From NCBI GenBank assembly GCA_005878985.1, contig VBMA01000078.1:1-40547 (forward strand): a DNA stretch of 40,547 nucleotides, read 5' to 3'. The position numbers and the translations under genes were made by a program. Of the stretch, positions 22,914 to 30,107 are shown piece by piece; position 1 is the first letter of the stretch, and the number at the start of each line of letters is the position of its first letter. The notes beneath the pieces are model-generated. The model was not told the origin of the DNA. It saw only the letters and a program-made list of their open reading frames with translations, and did not search any database. Source of the stretch: Methanobacteriota archaeon (lineage in GTDB: Archaea; Thermoplasmatota; Thermoplasmata; RBG-16-68-12).

Positions 22914-24068
22914 TCACGTCACGATCTCGTCGAGCCGACCGCTTTCGACGCCCCGCCGGATCTCCATCGCGATCCGTCGCCCCGTACTCATCGGACGGCG
23001 CCAGAGCGAGTTCCCGTACGGGTGGCCCATCGACATGTGGACGTTCGTCCCGCCGCCGATACGAGGCGCCACGTCGTAGACCCAGAACTTCAGGTCTTTG
23101 TCGACCGCGGTCTGGAGGGTGAACGGTCCGATGATCCCCGGTCGGAAGTGTTCCTGCGTCGCCCGGACGTACCGTTCGGCGATGTCGAAGACCGCCGCGA
23201 GGCTGGACTCCCGGAGGGTCGCCGTGTTGTGTCCGACGACGACGTATTCGGGAATGCGCTGGGCCTCGGCGAGCGTCATCTGCTGATCGGCCGGCAGTCG
23301 CACGTGTCCGTCCAAGGACGTCTCGAACCGCCAGTCCACCCCGAGGAGCTCGAGCTTCTCCGCCTGCGCCTCGATCGGGGAATAGAAGAAATCGAAGTTG
23401 AAGATCGGTCCGATGATGTATCGCTCGATCCGGGCCTTGGCCAGGTCCCGCGCCGAGATGACGCCCTGTTTCAGGAGGGCCTCGGACTTCGTCTTGTACT
23501 CCTTGTAGCTCGCGGCGGTGAAGAAGCCGCGCTCGAGTTTCTTGACCTTGTGATGCAGCTTCACGATCACGAGGCCGCCGATGTCCTTCGGGTCCTCGAT
23601 CTTCTCCGGCGCCGGCAACCGGGCCTTCTCGAGGATCCAGTAGTAGCTCCGCTCCTCCTCGCGCTCCTCCGTCCGGAGCAGGCTCCGGCTCCCGAACAAC
23701 GGGACCTGGAACGAGCGCTCGATCGCGTCGAGATCGCAATACGAGGTGAAGGAGCGATTCGGGATGAAGACTGCGTTCGCCTTGCGGAGGCGGTCCTGCA
23801 TCTTCTCGTCGAGCACTTCCTGGAACTTCGAAAGGATGATCGCCTCGTCCACCATGCCGCGGACCGCACGGCCTTCCTTGTCCCGCGTCGTGCGGAAGAA
23901 TCTCGCATACGGTGTCGACCGGCCCTTTTCGCAGATTACGAGGGTCGAGAACCCTTCCTCGACGGCTCCGTCGCAGACATCGAGGGCCGAGTGCGAGCCG
24001 ATCGTCGCAATGCGAATCGCGGACGGATCGTACGCTTCCAGGACTTTCAGGATCCCTTCCCGGCTCAC
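22914..24068 (-). CDS. purP: FAICAR synthetase PurP (archaeal ATP-grasp)
   Basis: IATIGSHSALDVCDGAVEEGFSTLVICEKGR, NRSFTSYCDLDAIE, VYDVAPRIGGGTNVHMSMGHPYGNSLW. GTG 24068 (SREGILKVLEAYD) fits the TATA position and expected N-terminus. Confidence 0.92.
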   Translation of the reverse strand: MSREGILKVLEAYDPSAIRIATIGSHSALDVCDGAVEEGFSTLVICEKGRSTPYARFFRTTRDKEGRAVRGMVDEAIILSKFQEVLDEKMQDRLRKANAVFIPNRSFTSYCDLDAIERSFQVPLFGSRSLLRTEEREEERSYYWILEKARLPAPEKIEDPKDIGGLVIVKLHHKVKKLERGFFTAASYKEYKTKSEALLKQGVISARDLAKARIERYIIGPIFNFDFFYSPIEAQAEKLELLGVDWRFETSLDGHVRLPADQQMTLAEAQRIPEYVVVGHNTATLRESSLAAVFDIAERYVRATQEHFRPGIIGPFTLQTAVDKDLKFWVYDVAPRIGGGTNVHMSMGHPYGNSLWRRPMSTGRRIAMEIRRGVESGRLDEIVT

Positions 24069-24187
24069 GATCGTGCCCGTCCCCTCCCGGTGCGGCCCCA
24101 TCGTGGCGCCGTCTTTAATCCTTTGGGAGAGTGCCGCGCGCAATTCCAGAGGAACGTCTTTATCGGCCCATCCGCTTCGCGCGGGCG

Positions 24188-25816
24188 GTGGAAGCGCGGC
24201 CGACGAAGTGGTGGGGATGGGGTTGGGAAGACAAAGTCCTGCGGCTCGAGAGCCGTCCTGCCCTTGCGGCGTATCTCGGACATCGCCTGGACGTCGATCT
24301 CTCCGTTCGGCGTCCCGTCGCGTCGTTCGACCAGATCGAGGTCCCGCCGTCGAGACTGTCGAGCCAGGACCTCGCAGACATCCAGGTCATCGTCGGCGAG
24401 GGGAATCTCGCGAGCGATAACGTCGCGCGCGTGACGCACGCCACCGGAAGAGGGTACAAGGATCTCGTCCGCCTCCGGACCGCGCGCCTCGACCACGTCC
24501 CCGATCTTGTCGTCTACCCCGAAGACGAGGACTCGGTCCCGCGTCTCCTGGAGTTCGCAGGAAGCCACCGCTACGCGGTGATCCCGTTCGGTGGCGGCAC
24601 GAACGTGGTCGGTGGCCTCGATGTCCATGGGCAGTTCGCGGCGACAATCGTCATGGACCTGCGCCGCCTCCGGCGGGTCCTCGCGATCGACATCGAATCG
24701 GGCCTCGCGACCGTCGAGGCGGGAATCCGAGGACCGCCCCTCGAGGAAGCCTTGAACGCGAAGGGCCTCACGCTCGGGCACTTCCCGCAATCGTGGGAGT
24801 TCTCGACGGTCGGGGGATGGATCGCGATGCGGGCGTCCGGCTCCCATTCGAACCGATACGGGAGCATCGAGGACCTCGTCGTCGGAGTGCGACTCGTCTC
24901 GCCCGCGCGCGTCCTCGAGGTCCGGTCCGTGCCGAAGGAATCGCACGGCCCGAGCCTGAAGGAACTCGTCCTCGGCTCGGAGGGCGCCCTCGGGGTGATC
25001 ACGCAGGCGACGCTCCGCGTCCAGCCGTTGCCTCTCGTGCGACGATTCGAATCGCGGTTGTTCTCGAGCTTCGCCGACGGGGTGGCGGCCCTTCGAGCGA
25101 TGGCGCGGGAGGACGGCCTGCCGGACATGGCGTACCTCGCGGACAGCGAAGAGACGAAGTTCGCGGCGGCCGGCGAAGGGATCGCACCCGACGCCGATGG
25201 CATCGCGGGACGTCGACTCGCGGAGGGGTCTCTCCTCCTCATGGGCTTCGAAGGTACGAAGGAACGGGTAACCCACCGACGTCGCGTGGCCCTTCGGCAC
25301 GCCCGGGCGAACTCGACGAGCCTCGGCTCCGGGCCGGCGGAGCGGTGGTCCCATGAGCGCTTCGAACTGCCGTACTTGCGGGACTCGCTCCTCGATCACG
25401 GCATCCTCGTCGACACGGTCGAGACCGCGGCTCGATGGTCGGACCTCCTGGCGGTGTACGACCACGCGAAGAAGGCGCTGCAAGAGGCCCTGTGGAAGGA
25501 CGGGACCGCGGGCCTCGTCCTGTGTCACGTGTCCCACGCGTATCCGGACGGCGCCTCGCTGTACTACACGTTCCTCGCGCCGCAGCGGGAGGGCCACGAG
25601 ATCGAACAGTGGGAAGGCATCAAGGCCGCCGTCACCGAAGCCGTTCTGGACGCCGGCGCGGCGTTGAGCCACCATCACGGGATCGGCGAGGATCACGCGC
25701 CCTACCTGTCCCGGGTCATCGGTGAGGACGGGCTCGTCGTGTTGCGGGCCCTGAAGCGGGAGCTCGACCCGGACGGCATCATGAATCCGGGGACCCTCGT
25801 GATGGGATCGGCGTGA
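24188..25816 (+). CDS. FAD-linked oxidase, alkyldihydroxyacetonephosphate synthase (AGPS)-like
   Basis: TKWWGWGWEDK, VIPFGGGTNVVGG FAD-binding motif, WEFSTVGGWIAMRASGSHSNRYG, C-terminal LSHHHGIGEDH as in AGPS. GTG 24188 about 25 nt downstream of a second TATA (TTTATC). Confidence 0.85.
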   Translation: MEARPTKWWGWGWEDKVLRLESRPALAAYLGHRLDVDLSVRRPVASFDQIEVPPSRLSSQDLADIQVIVGEGNLASDNVARVTHATGRGYKDLVRLRTARLDHVPDLVVYPEDEDSVPRLLEFAGSHRYAVIPFGGGTNVVGGLDVHGQFAATIVMDLRRLRRVLAIDIESGLATVEAGIRGPPLEEALNAKGLTLGHFPQSWEFSTVGGWIAMRASGSHSNRYGSIEDLVVGVRLVSPARVLEVRSVPKESHGPSLKELVLGSEGALGVITQATLRVQPLPLVRRFESRLFSSFADGVAALRAMAREDGLPDMAYLADSEETKFAAAGEGIAPDADGIAGRRLAEGSLLLMGFEGTKERVTHRRRVALRHARANSTSLGSGPAERWSHERFELPYLRDSLLDHGILVDTVETAARWSDLLAVYDHAKKALQEALWKDGTAGLVLCHVSHAYPDGASLYYTFLAPQREGHEIEQWEGIKAAVTEAVLDAGAALSHHHGIGEDHAPYLSRVIGEDGLVVLRALKRELDPDGIMNPGTLVMGSA

Positions 25817-27423
25817 CCGAGTTCTCGGCTCGGACCCGGGCGGCGAACCTGCAGCGGATGCGGGACGAACCGCTCGAGGTCCTCGTCGTCGGAGCCGGGA
25901 TCGTTGGGGCCGGGGTCGCGCGGGACGCGGCGTGCCGCGGCTTCGCCACCGCGCTGGTCGACCGGGGCGATTTCGCGGCCGGGACAAGCGGCAAGACGTC
26001 GCGCCTCGTCCACGGAGGCCTTCGCTATCTCCGGAACTATCGATTCGGGCTCGTGCGACGCGCCGTTCGTGAACGGGACCTGTTGCTGCGCAACGCCCCT
26101 GGACTCGTCCATCCGCTCCCCTTCCTCATCCCGTCATACGTGGACCGCGGTCCGGGACGTCTGCTGTTGCGGTTCGGCCTCTTCCTGTACGATTTCCTTT
26201 CGCGCGAGAAGACGCTGCCCCGCCGCTCGTGGCTCTCGCCACAAGAGGCACGGGAGCACGAGCCCCAGATCGCCGCCGAGAGACTCGCGGGAGCCGGACT
26301 GTATTACGATGCGGGCACCGACGATTCTCGACTCGTCCTCGCGGTCGTCCAAGATGCCGCCAAGGCCGGAGCAATCGTTGCGAATCACATTCAGGTCCAG
26401 GGTCTCGTCCGGAAGGAAGATCGCGTCGTGGGCGCGCACCTCCAGGATGCGATGACGGGCGGTTCGTTCACGGCCTCATCGCGGTCTGTTGTGAATGCGA
26501 CCGGGGTCTGGCTGGACGACCTGCGGACCGGCGGATTGATGCCCACAATCCGTCCGACGAAAGGCACTCACATCTTCGTCCCGCGCTCGAAAATCGGGAA
26601 CCGACACGCACTCGCCCTCACCGCCAAGAGAGACGGGCGGGTCGTGTTCGTTCTCCCGTGGGACGACCTGGCCCTCGTCGGGACGACGGACACCGACTTC
26701 CACGGCGATCCGACCCGGGTGGTCCCGGATGCAGGAGACGTCGCGTATCTCTTGGACACCGTGAATGAAACGTTCCCGAGCGCCCACCTGGTTCCCGATG
26801 ACGTGGTGAGCGCCTACGCGGGCTTGCGTCCCCTGCTGCGCAGAGGCCGCGCGAAGGCCGAATCGGACATCTCGCGGGATCACGCGATCTTCGAGGACCG
26901 CGATGGCTTGATCTCGGTGACCGGAGGCAAGCTGACGACCCATCGATCGATGGCGGAAGAGGTCGGTGGACTTCTTGCCCATCGTCTCGGTCGGCCGCAG
27001 GCGATCGTCACGCGGGATCGGCTGCTGGGCCCCCCCATGCGTCCGCTGGAAGAGTTCACGGATCTCGGGTTCGACGAGGAGACGGCCCTCCATCTCCAAG
27101 GTCGGTATGCGGCCGAACAAGTGCAACGTCACCTCGGTGCGCCCTCCGCCACGGAACGCCTCGTGCCGGCGCGGCCGCACACGTGGGTCGAGGTCGAGAT
27201 CGCGGTCCATGAGGAGATGGCGATGACTCTCGGTGACGTGCTCGTCCGTCGGCTGGGCTTGTTCTACGAGACGCCGGACCAAGGCATGCATGTTGCGGGA
27301 GCGGTGGCGGAGCGGATCGGGGGAATCCTCGGATGGGATTCCACGAGGACCGGGCGGGAAATCCGCGCCTACGAAGACCTCGTACGAGCCCATCAGGGAT
27401 TTCGGGTCGACCATGGCGGCTGA
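25813..27423 (+). CDS. glpD: Glycerol-3-phosphate dehydrogenase, GlpD type
   Basis: VLVVGAGIVGAGVARDAACRGFATALVDRGDFAAGTSGKTSRLVHGGLRYL; C-terminal DAO_C-like WVEVEIAVHEEMAMTLGDVLVRRLGLFYE; starts within the GTGA overlap with the AGPS-like gene. Confidence 0.93.
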   Translation: MTEFSARTRAANLQRMRDEPLEVLVVGAGIVGAGVARDAACRGFATALVDRGDFAAGTSGKTSRLVHGGLRYLRNYRFGLVRRAVRERDLLLRNAPGLVHPLPFLIPSYVDRGPGRLLLRFGLFLYDFLSREKTLPRRSWLSPQEAREHEPQIAAERLAGAGLYYDAGTDDSRLVLAVVQDAAKAGAIVANHIQVQGLVRKEDRVVGAHLQDAMTGGSFTASSRSVVNATGVWLDDLRTGGLMPTIRPTKGTHIFVPRSKIGNRHALALTAKRDGRVVFVLPWDDLALVGTTDTDFHGDPTRVVPDAGDVAYLLDTVNETFPSAHLVPDDVVSAYAGLRPLLRRGRAKAESDISRDHAIFEDRDGLISVTGGKLTTHRSMAEEVGGLLAHRLGRPQAIVTRDRLLGPPMRPLEEFTDLGFDEETALHLQGRYAAEQVQRHLGAPSATERLVPARPHTWVEVEIAVHEEMAMTLGDVLVRRLGLFYETPDQGMHVAGAVAERIGGILGWDSTRTGREIRAYEDLVRAHQGFRVDHGG

Positions 27424-28339
27424 AATCGTCTTCATCGTCAATCCGGCCTCCGCGAACGGTCGGATGCGCCGTCGCTGGAAGACCTATGAACGCGCGTTCC
27501 GCCGTGAGCTCGGCCCCGGGTTCGCCGTCCGGACGACCGACCGTGCCGGCCATGCTACGCACCACACGCGCGCAGCCTTGGGCGACGGCGCCACGACGAT
27601 CGTCTCGGTCGGCGGGGACGGGACGTTCAATGAGGTCGTCAACGGTTACCTGGGACACCGGGAAACCGCCCGGAACGCGGATGCGTGTCTCGCGGTGTTC
27701 TCGGTCGGGACGGGCGCCGATTTCGTCAGGACGCTCCCGGTCCCGGCCACGCCGGCGGCCCTCGCTCGGTGCATCCGGGAGCGGCAACCTCAGACGATCG
27801 ATGCGGGCCTCTGTGAGTTCCTCGACGCCGGCACTCGAAGGAAACGCTACTTCGTCAACGTCGCCGAATTCGGCTCGGGTGGAGCGGTGGTCGATCGCGT
27901 GAACCGCTCCTCCAAGATCCTTGGCGGCCGCCTCACCTTCGTATTCGCGATTCTCCGGACGCTTCCCCGGTACCGAAACACCCACGTGGTCTACGAAGCG
28001 GACGGCGGCCCTTCGAAAGAAGTCGTCGTCAACGACTTTGTTGTCGCGAACGGCCGGTATTTCGGAGCGGGCCTGATGCCGGCCCCCGCCGCGGACCTCG
28101 CGGACGGCTTGTTGGACGTGGTCATCTTCGGAGACATCGATTTCAAAGTGGCCCGACGGAACCTGCCCGCCCTGCGGCGCGGCGAGCACGTATCGTTGGC
28201 TGAGGTCACGACGTTCCGGTGCCGCGAGGTGACGATCCACGCGGCGGAGGAGATGATCGACCTCGATGGCGAATGCATCGGCCGCCATCCATTGCGCTTT
28301 TCGGTCGTGCCGAACGCGGTTTCGATCCTGGCGGAATAG
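27413..28339 (+). CDS. Diacylglycerol/lipid kinase family protein (DagK/YegS-like)
   Basis: VFIVNPASANGRMRRRW, SVGGDGTFNEVVNGYL, SVGTGADFVRTL, VANGRYFGAGLMPAPAADLADGLLDVV, DLDGE; overlaps the glpD 3' end. Confidence 0.92.
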   Translation: MAAEIVFIVNPASANGRMRRRWKTYERAFRRELGPGFAVRTTDRAGHATHHTRAALGDGATTIVSVGGDGTFNEVVNGYLGHRETARNADACLAVFSVGTGADFVRTLPVPATPAALARCIRERQPQTIDAGLCEFLDAGTRRKRYFVNVAEFGSGGAVVDRVNRSSKILGGRLTFVFAILRTLPRYRNTHVVYEADGGPSKEVVVNDFVVANGRYFGAGLMPAPAADLADGLLDVVIFGDIDFKVARRNLPALRRGEHVSLAEVTTFRCREVTIHAAEEMIDLDGECIGRHPLRFSVVPNAVSILAE

Positions 28340-28343
28340 GAGA

Positions 28344-28468
28344 TAGCCCCGGGCAGATTCGAACTGCCGTCGCGAGGTCTCTCCTCGGCGTCTTCGGCCG
28401 ATCCAGAGCCTCGAATCACTGGCCCGCGACCGCATCGCGGTCACGATTGGCCGCTAGACCACGGGGCT
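28344..28468 (-). tRNA. tRNA-Gln (CUG) containing two introns
   Basis: 125-nt gene: acceptor AGCCCCG/CGGGGCT, anticodon stem CGAGG/CCTCG, loop CTCTGG^A, T-arm GGCAG TTCGAAT CTGCC. Predicted introns 28419-28446 (D-loop, 28 nt) and 28379-28402 (37/38, 24 nt); mature RNA 73 nt. TATA-like CAATATAC about 28 bp upstream. Confidence 0.88.
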
Positions 28469-28508: not shown

Positions 28509-30107
28509 TTACTGGACCGCTTCGTTGAGTCGGCGCAAGACCCAGTCCTTCTCCAGCACGGCGAGGAACGGCGCGGCCCGAGGACCCATCTCCGACCCGA
28601 GCAAGATCAAGTAGAGGTCGCGGAAGAATCGGCCGGTCTCGACCGGGAGGCCCCCTTTCTTCGTGAGCACGACCATCGACTCTTTGATCGACTCCTCGTT
28701 CCAAGGAACGGCGGCGGCGCGGGTCGCATACAATCGCAACGCCGAACGATCGTCCGCATCGAGCTGCGACCTGACTTCGCGCGGCAGGGATTCAAGGAGC
28801 TTCACGCGATTCTCCGGTGCGTACTTCTCCACCCAGACGCGGGACTGTGTGAGGCGTCTCCCGATCCGCGCGCGCTCGCCTTCCGTCGGGACGCGGGTCA
28901 GCATCCCGGTGTCGCGCATCCGTTTCAGACACCACTCGAGCCGACCCGATTCAGGGCTGATTTGCGACAAGAACGCCGCATGACGGTACGAGAGTGCGAA
29001 GGGCTGCTCCTTCGGCACTGGCGCGAGGTACGCGAGCTCGTACGACCGAGCCTGGTCGTCCTCATCGCCTTCCCGGTCGGACGAATAGAACGCGTCTTCG
29101 GCGCGGTCGAAGGTATCGTGGTATGTGTCGACGCGATACAGGTCGAGGACCACGCGCCGCGCGATCGGATTGAAGGCGTAGATGTACCGCAAGACCTCGG
29201 CGTCTCCGACCTCCACCCATTGGGCTGGCGTGAAGCCGAGGAAGTCCGACGAGCCCATGTCGCCCAGATCTTTCCCGCGGTCGGCGATCCCGACCCATTC
29301 ATACGGAATGCCCATCGGGGGCCGGAAGTGCATGATCGTCTCTGCGATCTCCGCGCAGGAATCGCGCGAGCCACCCGGGGTTGCGTGGTCCTTCCCGAAC
29401 GGTTCGATGTCCACGCGGTAGACCTTCCAAAGGGCGGGCCACTCGAGCCGCCAGTTCAGTTTCCCTTTCTCGATCGAGGACTTGCCGCGATGCCCGCATC
29501 GCTCGCAGCGATAGGAGGCCGACATGCCATCAATCGCGGTCGTCGTCGCGCCGATCGTCCCGCATTTCTCGCAGAACGCCTCGAAGGGAATCCATCCTGC
29601 CGGGTACGGGTGGCGGGCCCGGTACTTGTTGACGACGGCGCGGACCTCTTCCGCCCGCGGGGCCAAATCGCGGACGAGCGCCTGCATCTCGGGATTGCGA
29701 TACGTGTCCGTGGTCGTCACGATCCGGACACCGGGCGCGAACCGGTCCAGCACCCCGCCGAAATCTTGCCAGAAGTGTTCGACCCAGTTCGCGTGGCAAC
29801 CGAGCGGATCCGGGACATCGATGAGCCGGCGGCCCGCGTACTTCCGCCCATCCTCCTTCGTGAATTGGGCCACCTGGGCTTCCTTCGCCTTCCATTCGTC
29901 CTGCGTGTAGAGGACCAAACTCTGGACCGCGTTCTGACCCAGGTCCCGAAAACTCCGGGTCAGGAGCTGGGAGAGCGTGATCTCGCCGCGGAGCCGCCCC
30001 ACATGTTGGAGTCCGCTGACGCTCAGGCCGGCATTGATGACGAGGTCCCGCTTCTCGCCGACATACGCCTTCGCGTCGACGAGGAGGTCATCGTACCAGT
30101 GCGTCAG
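28509..30107 (-). CDS. lysK: Lysyl-tRNA synthetase, class I
   Basis: LVINAGLSVSGLQHVGRLRGEITLSQ HIGH-like region, YEWVGIADRGKDLGDMGSSD, zinc ribbon FCEKCGTIG...YRCERCG. Start placed at CTG 30107; see finding. Confidence 0.9.
   Translation of the reverse strand: MTHWYDDLLVDAKAYVGEKRDLVINAGLSVSGLQHVGRLRGEITLSQLLTRSFRDLGQNAVQSLVLYTQDEWKAKEAQVAQFTKEDGRKYAGRRLIDVPDPLGCHANWVEHFWQDFGGVLDRFAPGVRIVTTTDTYRNPEMQALVRDLAPRAEEVRAVVNKYRARHPYPAGWIPFEAFCEKCGTIGATTTAIDGMSASYRCERCGHRGKSSIEKGKLNWRLEWPALWKVYRVDIEPFGKDHATPGGSRDSCAEIAETIMHFRPPMGIPYEWVGIADRGKDLGDMGSSDFLGFTPAQWVEVGDAEVLRYIYAFNPIARRVVLDLYRVDTYHDTFDRAEDAFYSSDREGDEDDQARSYELAYLAPVPKEQPFALSYRHAAFLSQISPESGRLEWCLKRMRDTGMLTRVPTEGERARIGRRLTQSRVWVEKYAPENRVKLLESLPREVRSQLDADDRSALRLYATRAAAVPWNEESIKESMVVLTKKGGLPVETGRFFRDLYLILLGSEMGPRAAPFLAVLEKDWVLRRLNEAVQ

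Follow-up and report, generated by a model that had tools for sequence, protein, structure and literature searches.

A possible glycerol ether-lipid salvage operon combining an AGPS-like flavoenzyme, GlpD and a DagK/YegS lipid kinase in Thermoplasmata

The 40,547-nucleotide contig VBMA01000078.1 (assembly GCA_005878985.1; hereafter the window) belongs to a 2.11-Mb genome, 91% complete, of a Thermoplasmatota archaeon, and carries at 24188-28339 (+) an operon of three co-directional open reading frames (ORFs) encoding, in this order, a flavoenzyme resembling alkylglycerone-phosphate synthase (AGPS), a GlpD-type sn-glycerol-3-phosphate (G3P) dehydrogenase and a DagK/YegS-type lipid kinase. We favour, tentatively, the reading of this trio as a quinone-linked module for the salvage or catabolism of glycerol ether lipids, in which the substrates, the reaction order and the reaction direction are those that we infer. 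A first-pass annotation of this DNA had named the three families and their coupling rightly, as domains, motifs and conserved gene order bear out, and had offered dedicated ether-lipid synthesis on G3P or dihydroxyacetone phosphate (DHAP), lipid salvage or mixed membranes as explanations. Salvage is the likeliest of these, and the absence of acyltransferases, GpsA and GlpK tells against the other two.

The first protein belongs with AGPS as judged by sequence and modelled fold. It combines a VAO-type flavin adenine dinucleotide (FAD) domain with the AGPS C-terminal domain (PF01565 and PF02913, E ~1e-36 each), and its best phmmer matches among solved relatives are Dictyostelium AGPS (3e-102) and mammalian AGPS (1e-72), while other FAD oxidases including D-lactate dehydrogenases score 7e-29 or weaker. 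The AlphaFold model (pLDDT 89.7) has AGPS as all of its top 37 PDB matches, with fold-search E-values of 4e-49 for AGPS versus 5e-29 for the D-lactate/glycolate oxidase side. Sequence scores and fold thus agree in ruling out a glycolate or lactate oxidase, an affiliation that the first-pass annotation had named as one that would refute its proposal. The AGPS-type motifs that it had pointed out are present (KWWGWG and LSHHHGIGEDH), with the HHH invariant in the alignment, and three weaker FAD-oxidase paralogues in the same genome (L002-L004) have no HHH motif where readable. In the AGPS tree the window protein groups with eukaryotic and bacterial AGPS-type proteins; the outgroup (glcD_like) also carries HHH and represents a deeper AGPS-like group, so that this tree is no test against glycolate oxidases.

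At the catalytic site the resemblance is incomplete. R352, Y508 and R447 of Dictyostelium AGPS are important for catalysis according to cited mutagenesis (PMC3509576), and they align to guinea-pig R419, Y578 and R515 (chain indices are offset by 3 for all three alike). Window Y459, R398 and H495-H497 correspond in the alignment to guinea-pig Y578, R515 and H615-617, and Tyr316 sits at the catalytic Arg position, so the AGPS residues are retained for the Tyr, the R515-type Arg and the HHH and lost for Arg419. This Tyr is found in 7/7 aligned window-family sequences and in L028, that is, in every readable family member, as against Arg in 84/84 bacterial sequences, in all trio-type Thermoplasmata outside the family and in the two eukaryotic enzymes. 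The fold matches include PDB entry 4bc7, a mammalian AGPS mutated to Arg419His, a change that we take to be inactivating and a human disease allele. As far as sequence can tell, the change from Arg419 to Tyr implies an altered substrate or chemistry in the window family. Other departures are seen in the class: in Thermoplasmata families f14, f22, f26 and f31 (loci in the table) the AGPS-like proteins have lost R515 to A, G or Y and kept R419, and two proteins of family f15 (L129 and L131) have SHHLG and an Asn at the catalytic Tyr position; GlpD is missing within 1.5 kb of both, as it is from a longer stretch (L162) around L129.

The window gene is nevertheless under purifying selection, its ratio of nonsynonymous to synonymous substitution (dN/dS) against relative G015 being ~0.10, near the 0.08 of lysS, which rules out that AGPS is decaying in the window itself. 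These observations feed the main rival to the salvage reading, namely that the AGPS-like protein may act on another substrate, such as a phosphorylated sugar or a hydroxy or alkoxy acid, and that the trio would be a general system for disposing of G3P and glycerolipids with no ether chemistry. A Tyr at position 419 in a protein still under selection, the replacement of R515 in the four other families and the occurrence of AGPS-family proteins without GlpD or DagK are what one would expect from it; the retention of Y578, of all three His and of a complete AGPS fold, together with a link to lipid-kinase and G3P-dehydrogenase genes that spans two domains of life, makes it unlikely in our judgement, though a serious competitor.

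The other two identifications of the first-pass annotation also stand. GlpD has DAO and DAO_C domains (PF01266 and PF16901) and scores 314 bits, below the NCBIfam equivalog cut-off of 360 bits, with conserved LRPL, ISR and GGK motifs which presumably supply the substrate-binding Arg, Arg and Lys. The kinase has DAGK_cat and YegS_C domains (PF00781 and PF19279) with a GGDGT motif, and reaches 132.5 bits for TIGR00147, above the curated cut-off of 118.65. The ORF coordinates confirm the arrangement described earlier: the glpD start and the AGPS stop share a GTGA at 25813-25816, and the dagK ATG lies within glpD, with an overlap of 11 bp. The trio is collinear, with no regulator gene between its members.

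Table 1. Features of the operon and its surroundings in the window, and AGPS-like loci with a replaced R515 in other Thermoplasmata
Feature	Position or locus	Strand	Remarks
AGPS-family FAD protein	24188..25816	+	GTG start, 542 amino acids
GlpD-type quinone-linked sn-glycerol-3-phosphate dehydrogenase	25813..27423	+	ORF, domains, motifs
YegS/DagK-family lipid kinase	27413..28339	+	308 amino acids, GGDGTFNEV motif
purP (archaeal inosine monophosphate synthesis)	22914..24143	-	Left boundary, divergent; syntenic in relatives
Archaeal class I lysyl-tRNA synthetase (lysS)	28509..30002	-	Right boundary, convergent; syntenic in relatives
TATA-like box TTTATC	24159..24164	+	~24 bp before the AGPS GTG start; putative promoter
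AGPS-like loci without R515	L034, L132-L134, L136-L138, L140, L141, L147, L149, L151, L153, L154		

Contamination by bacterial DNA, which the first-pass annotation had raised against itself, is ruled out because the flanking genes (kptA, purP and class I lysS) are archaeal and keep their synteny in more than 10 relatives. The same synteny allows the history of the operon to be followed. Of 19 genomes of the window's genus, 17 have GlpD and 7 have AGPS, so that GlpD occurs without AGPS in 10 genus members, and also in one member of a sister genus. In AGPS-minus relatives short pieces of AGPS remain at the syntenic purP–glpD–lysS site, among them residues 3-11 linked to 511-541 (L165), 1-57 (L169) and 499-540 (L174), and remnants of DagK (residues 286-307 or 1-46) are frequent there; 6 AGPS and 4 DagK remnants score above all 270 shuffles, and L155, L168 and L171 have little or no remnant. 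The stretch ACGTCTTTATC around the TATA-like box also persists in most relatives that lack the AGPS body. AGPS and DagK are both missing in 9/9 loci readable on both sides, and a tree of purP, lysS and glpD requires ~5 losses, or 4 with weakly supported branches collapsed. Since glpD between them is intact, except for a frame break in L174, the two losses needed separate deletions, and the disappearance of both despite this argues that AGPS is coupled to DagK; GlpD, being kept where they are lost, has an additional role.

Such coupled loss bears directly on another account, in which scavenged bacterial lipids supply diacylglycerol, phosphatidic acid and G3P for recycling, DagK forming phosphatidic acid, GlpD burning G3P and AGPS being accessory. 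GlpD alone is retained in many relatives, GDPD and patatin genes stand near the module in bacteria, and the mycobacterial homologue Rv2252 has been reported as a diacylglycerol kinase (PMC3229680), all of which would suit it. At the syntenic site DagK is however gone wherever AGPS is gone while GlpD stays, and thus follows AGPS and not GlpD, which makes this account quite improbable.

Outside the genus the trio recurs in both prokaryotic domains. AGPS matches were found in 17/100 relatives, two of them (L019 and L020) without adjoining GlpD; in related genomes, 14 loci have AGPS followed by GlpD with order and strand conserved, and DagK comes next in 13 of them, the contig ending in the other. 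The order AGPS, GlpD, DagK recurs in Thermoplasmata families f1, f6, f14 and f15 in differing surroundings, while f22, f26 and f31 show variant arrangements. A survey covering 80 loci, drawn from named genomes and plasmid records, showed that Actinomycetota with a nearby GlpD mostly have a divergent glpD, with AGPS and dagK co-directional where dagK was found; Streptomyces fungicidicus and Tsukamurella are annotated examples of this layout with a TetR gene. In Chloroflexota and one Bacteroidota AGPS is paired with GlpD, the Bacteroidota locus adding a GDPD gene, and one Chloroflexota locus (L051) has an anaerobic glpABC set in place of GlpD. Among the neighbours are a GDPD whose nearest resemblance is to lysophosphatidylglycerol phospholipase D (L083), alpha/beta hydrolases (L033, L156), iron-dependent alcohol dehydrogenases (L156, L157) and patatin (L051). 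The trio is therefore cross-domain and widespread in bacteria, and an archaeon-specific module of the lipid divide is ruled out. In the AGPS tree Thermoplasmata fall in ~3 groups with mixed supports, which bears on a single archaeal origin of AGPS; the window family is placed weakly with Actinomycetota there, and with f6 archaea and Chloroflexota in the GlpD tree.

The closest described locus is that of Mycobacterium tuberculosis, where Rv2249c (glpD1), Rv2250c (a regulator), Rv2251 (a flavoprotein) and Rv2252 (a diacylglycerol kinase) bring the same three families side by side; in related Actinomycetota AGPS and dagK are direct neighbours on one strand. The actinobacterial loci differ from the window in that glpD is divergent and accompanied by a TetR-type gene, and does not lie between AGPS and dagK; the homologues compared keep R419 where the window family has Tyr, and their hosts make G3P ester lipids, unlike the window host. 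In BCG, the orthologues of Rv2249c-Rv2252 move together (log2 ~2.1-2.3) in a strain overexpressing inbR (PMC4564863). Eukaryotic AGPS (Dictyostelium 2UUU, guinea pig 4BBY) shares with the window protein the fold (TM 0.84-0.90), the catalytic Tyr, one Arg and the HHH; the window protein differs in having Tyr for Arg419/Arg352, no peroxisomal context and no GNPAT partner, at ~30% identity. Agps of Myxococcus xanthus, likened here by its description, is a bacterial homologue tied to the formation of alkenyl ether lipids, or plasmalogens, and Agps homologues are mentioned in archaeal metagenome-assembled genomes (MAGs) by the same source (PMC11868695). In the part of the literature covered, we found neither the archaeal trio nor its sharing with Actinomycetota nor the joint loss of AGPS and DagK described.

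The genomic context speaks against lipid synthesis on G3P. G1PDH and GGGPS, which the first-pass annotation had singled out for a search, both have matches in the window's genome, so the normal archaeal sn-glycerol-1-phosphate (G1P) route appears to be kept. PF01553 acyltransferases (PlsC/GNPAT) were found in 0/16 genomes checked (10/14 bacterial controls positive), PlsY likewise in 0/16 (8/14 bacterial controls positive), GpsA in 0/20 genomes, and FGGY glycerol kinase (GlpK) in none of the genus and family members checked; acyl-CoA dehydrogenases are in 16/16 genomes, at 3-8 each. The assemblies are mostly incomplete, which makes single absences weak evidence and uniform absence not. With PlsC/GNPAT and PlsY absent, acyl-DHAP and acyl-G3P are without a known source, and with FGGY kinase and GpsA absent G3P is without a classical one; GlpK-GlpD glycerol catabolism is likewise ruled out for the genus, as far as the members checked go. 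L155 (G014, 98% complete) keeps GlpD alone and has neither GlpK nor GpsA to supply it with G3P. Alkyl ether lipid biosynthesis, in which AGPS would make alkyl-DHAP for membrane or minor lipids, can draw on a genuine AGPS-family fold with most catalytic residues kept and on the use of AGPS homologues, noted in archaeal MAGs, as markers of ether-lipid capacity (PMC11868695). It is the least probable account that we consider, being at odds with the missing acyltransferases and R419, with the canonical G1P route, with the direction of GlpD and the lack of an alkyl-DHAP reductase in the operon, and with the dispensability of AGPS in the genus. A G3P-based membrane is unlikely.

In the salvage reading, the YegS/DagK kinase would first phosphorylate a glycerol lipid, most likely 1-O-alkylglycerol or a lyso-ether lipid, and GlpD would then oxidise the free C2 hydroxyl to a ketone with quinone as acceptor, giving a product of the alkyl-DHAP type, and would also take plain G3P. 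The AGPS-like flavoenzyme would finally turn the covalent flavin chemistry of AGPS to breakdown and exchange or hydrolyse the C1 ether, releasing a free alcohol plus DHAP or acyl-DHAP for central metabolism, with the chain passing to beta-oxidation. The presence of GlpD fits breakdown because oxidation turns alkyl-G3P into alkyl-DHAP, a step that synthesis does not need. This reading gains from the usual partner of AGPS being GlpD, or glpABC once, both oxidisers of G3P; from acyl-CoA dehydrogenases being present where PlsC/GNPAT and PlsY are absent; from the equivalents of Y578, R515 and HHH being kept and AGPS and DagK being lost together; from neighbours in other lineages (GDPD, hydrolases, alcohol dehydrogenase, patatin) being of a lipid-degrading kind, not counted statistically; and from the TetR-flanked divergent layout in Actinomycetota and the co-induction of the M. 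tuberculosis set in BCG.

Several points weigh on the other side. The trio members are known here as genes, and the reversed AGPS reaction on alkyl-DHAP with water would be a presumed step. The neighbouring genes vary between lineages, and the genes traced for the fate of the fatty alcohol or fatty acid are the acyl-CoA dehydrogenases only. The 11 relatives that keep GlpD without AGPS must use it for something other than this pathway, there too without a classical supply of G3P, and Rv2252 is reported as feeding phosphatidylinositol mannoside synthesis, an anabolic use (PMC3229680).

Two AGPS-family genes without GlpD or DagK lie on plasmids, one of a dioxane degrader and one of Streptomyces (L042, L043), and the other plasmid matches come, we assume, from genera that degrade ethers or polyethylene glycol, so that cleavage of xenobiotic ethers is conceivable for some AGPS-like proteins. 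Between dagK and lysS a tRNA-like gene with an intron, conserved in relatives, was seen at 28344-28468 (-); it is unreported by ARAGORN and by Rfam at gathering score.

Soils and sediments are rich in glycerol ether lipids, which persist there for a long time. Alkylglycerol monooxygenase (AGMO), which would serve the same end without any claimed resemblance to the trio, is described, in the reviews drawn on here, as an O2- and tetrahydrobiopterin-dependent membrane enzyme and the only known cleaver of alkylglycerol ethers (PMC3617469; PMC7911779). It is conceivable, if rather doubtful, that Actinomycetota and Thermoplasmatota share an undescribed O2-independent cleavage of ether lipids by phosphorylation, quinone-linked C2 oxidation and a reversed AGPS reaction. 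If so, the kinase–dehydrogenase–AGPS module of archaea and mycobacteria would be a second ether-cutting route besides AGMO, and caution would be called for before AGPS homologues in archaeal MAGs are taken to prove that ether lipids are made or membranes are mixed.

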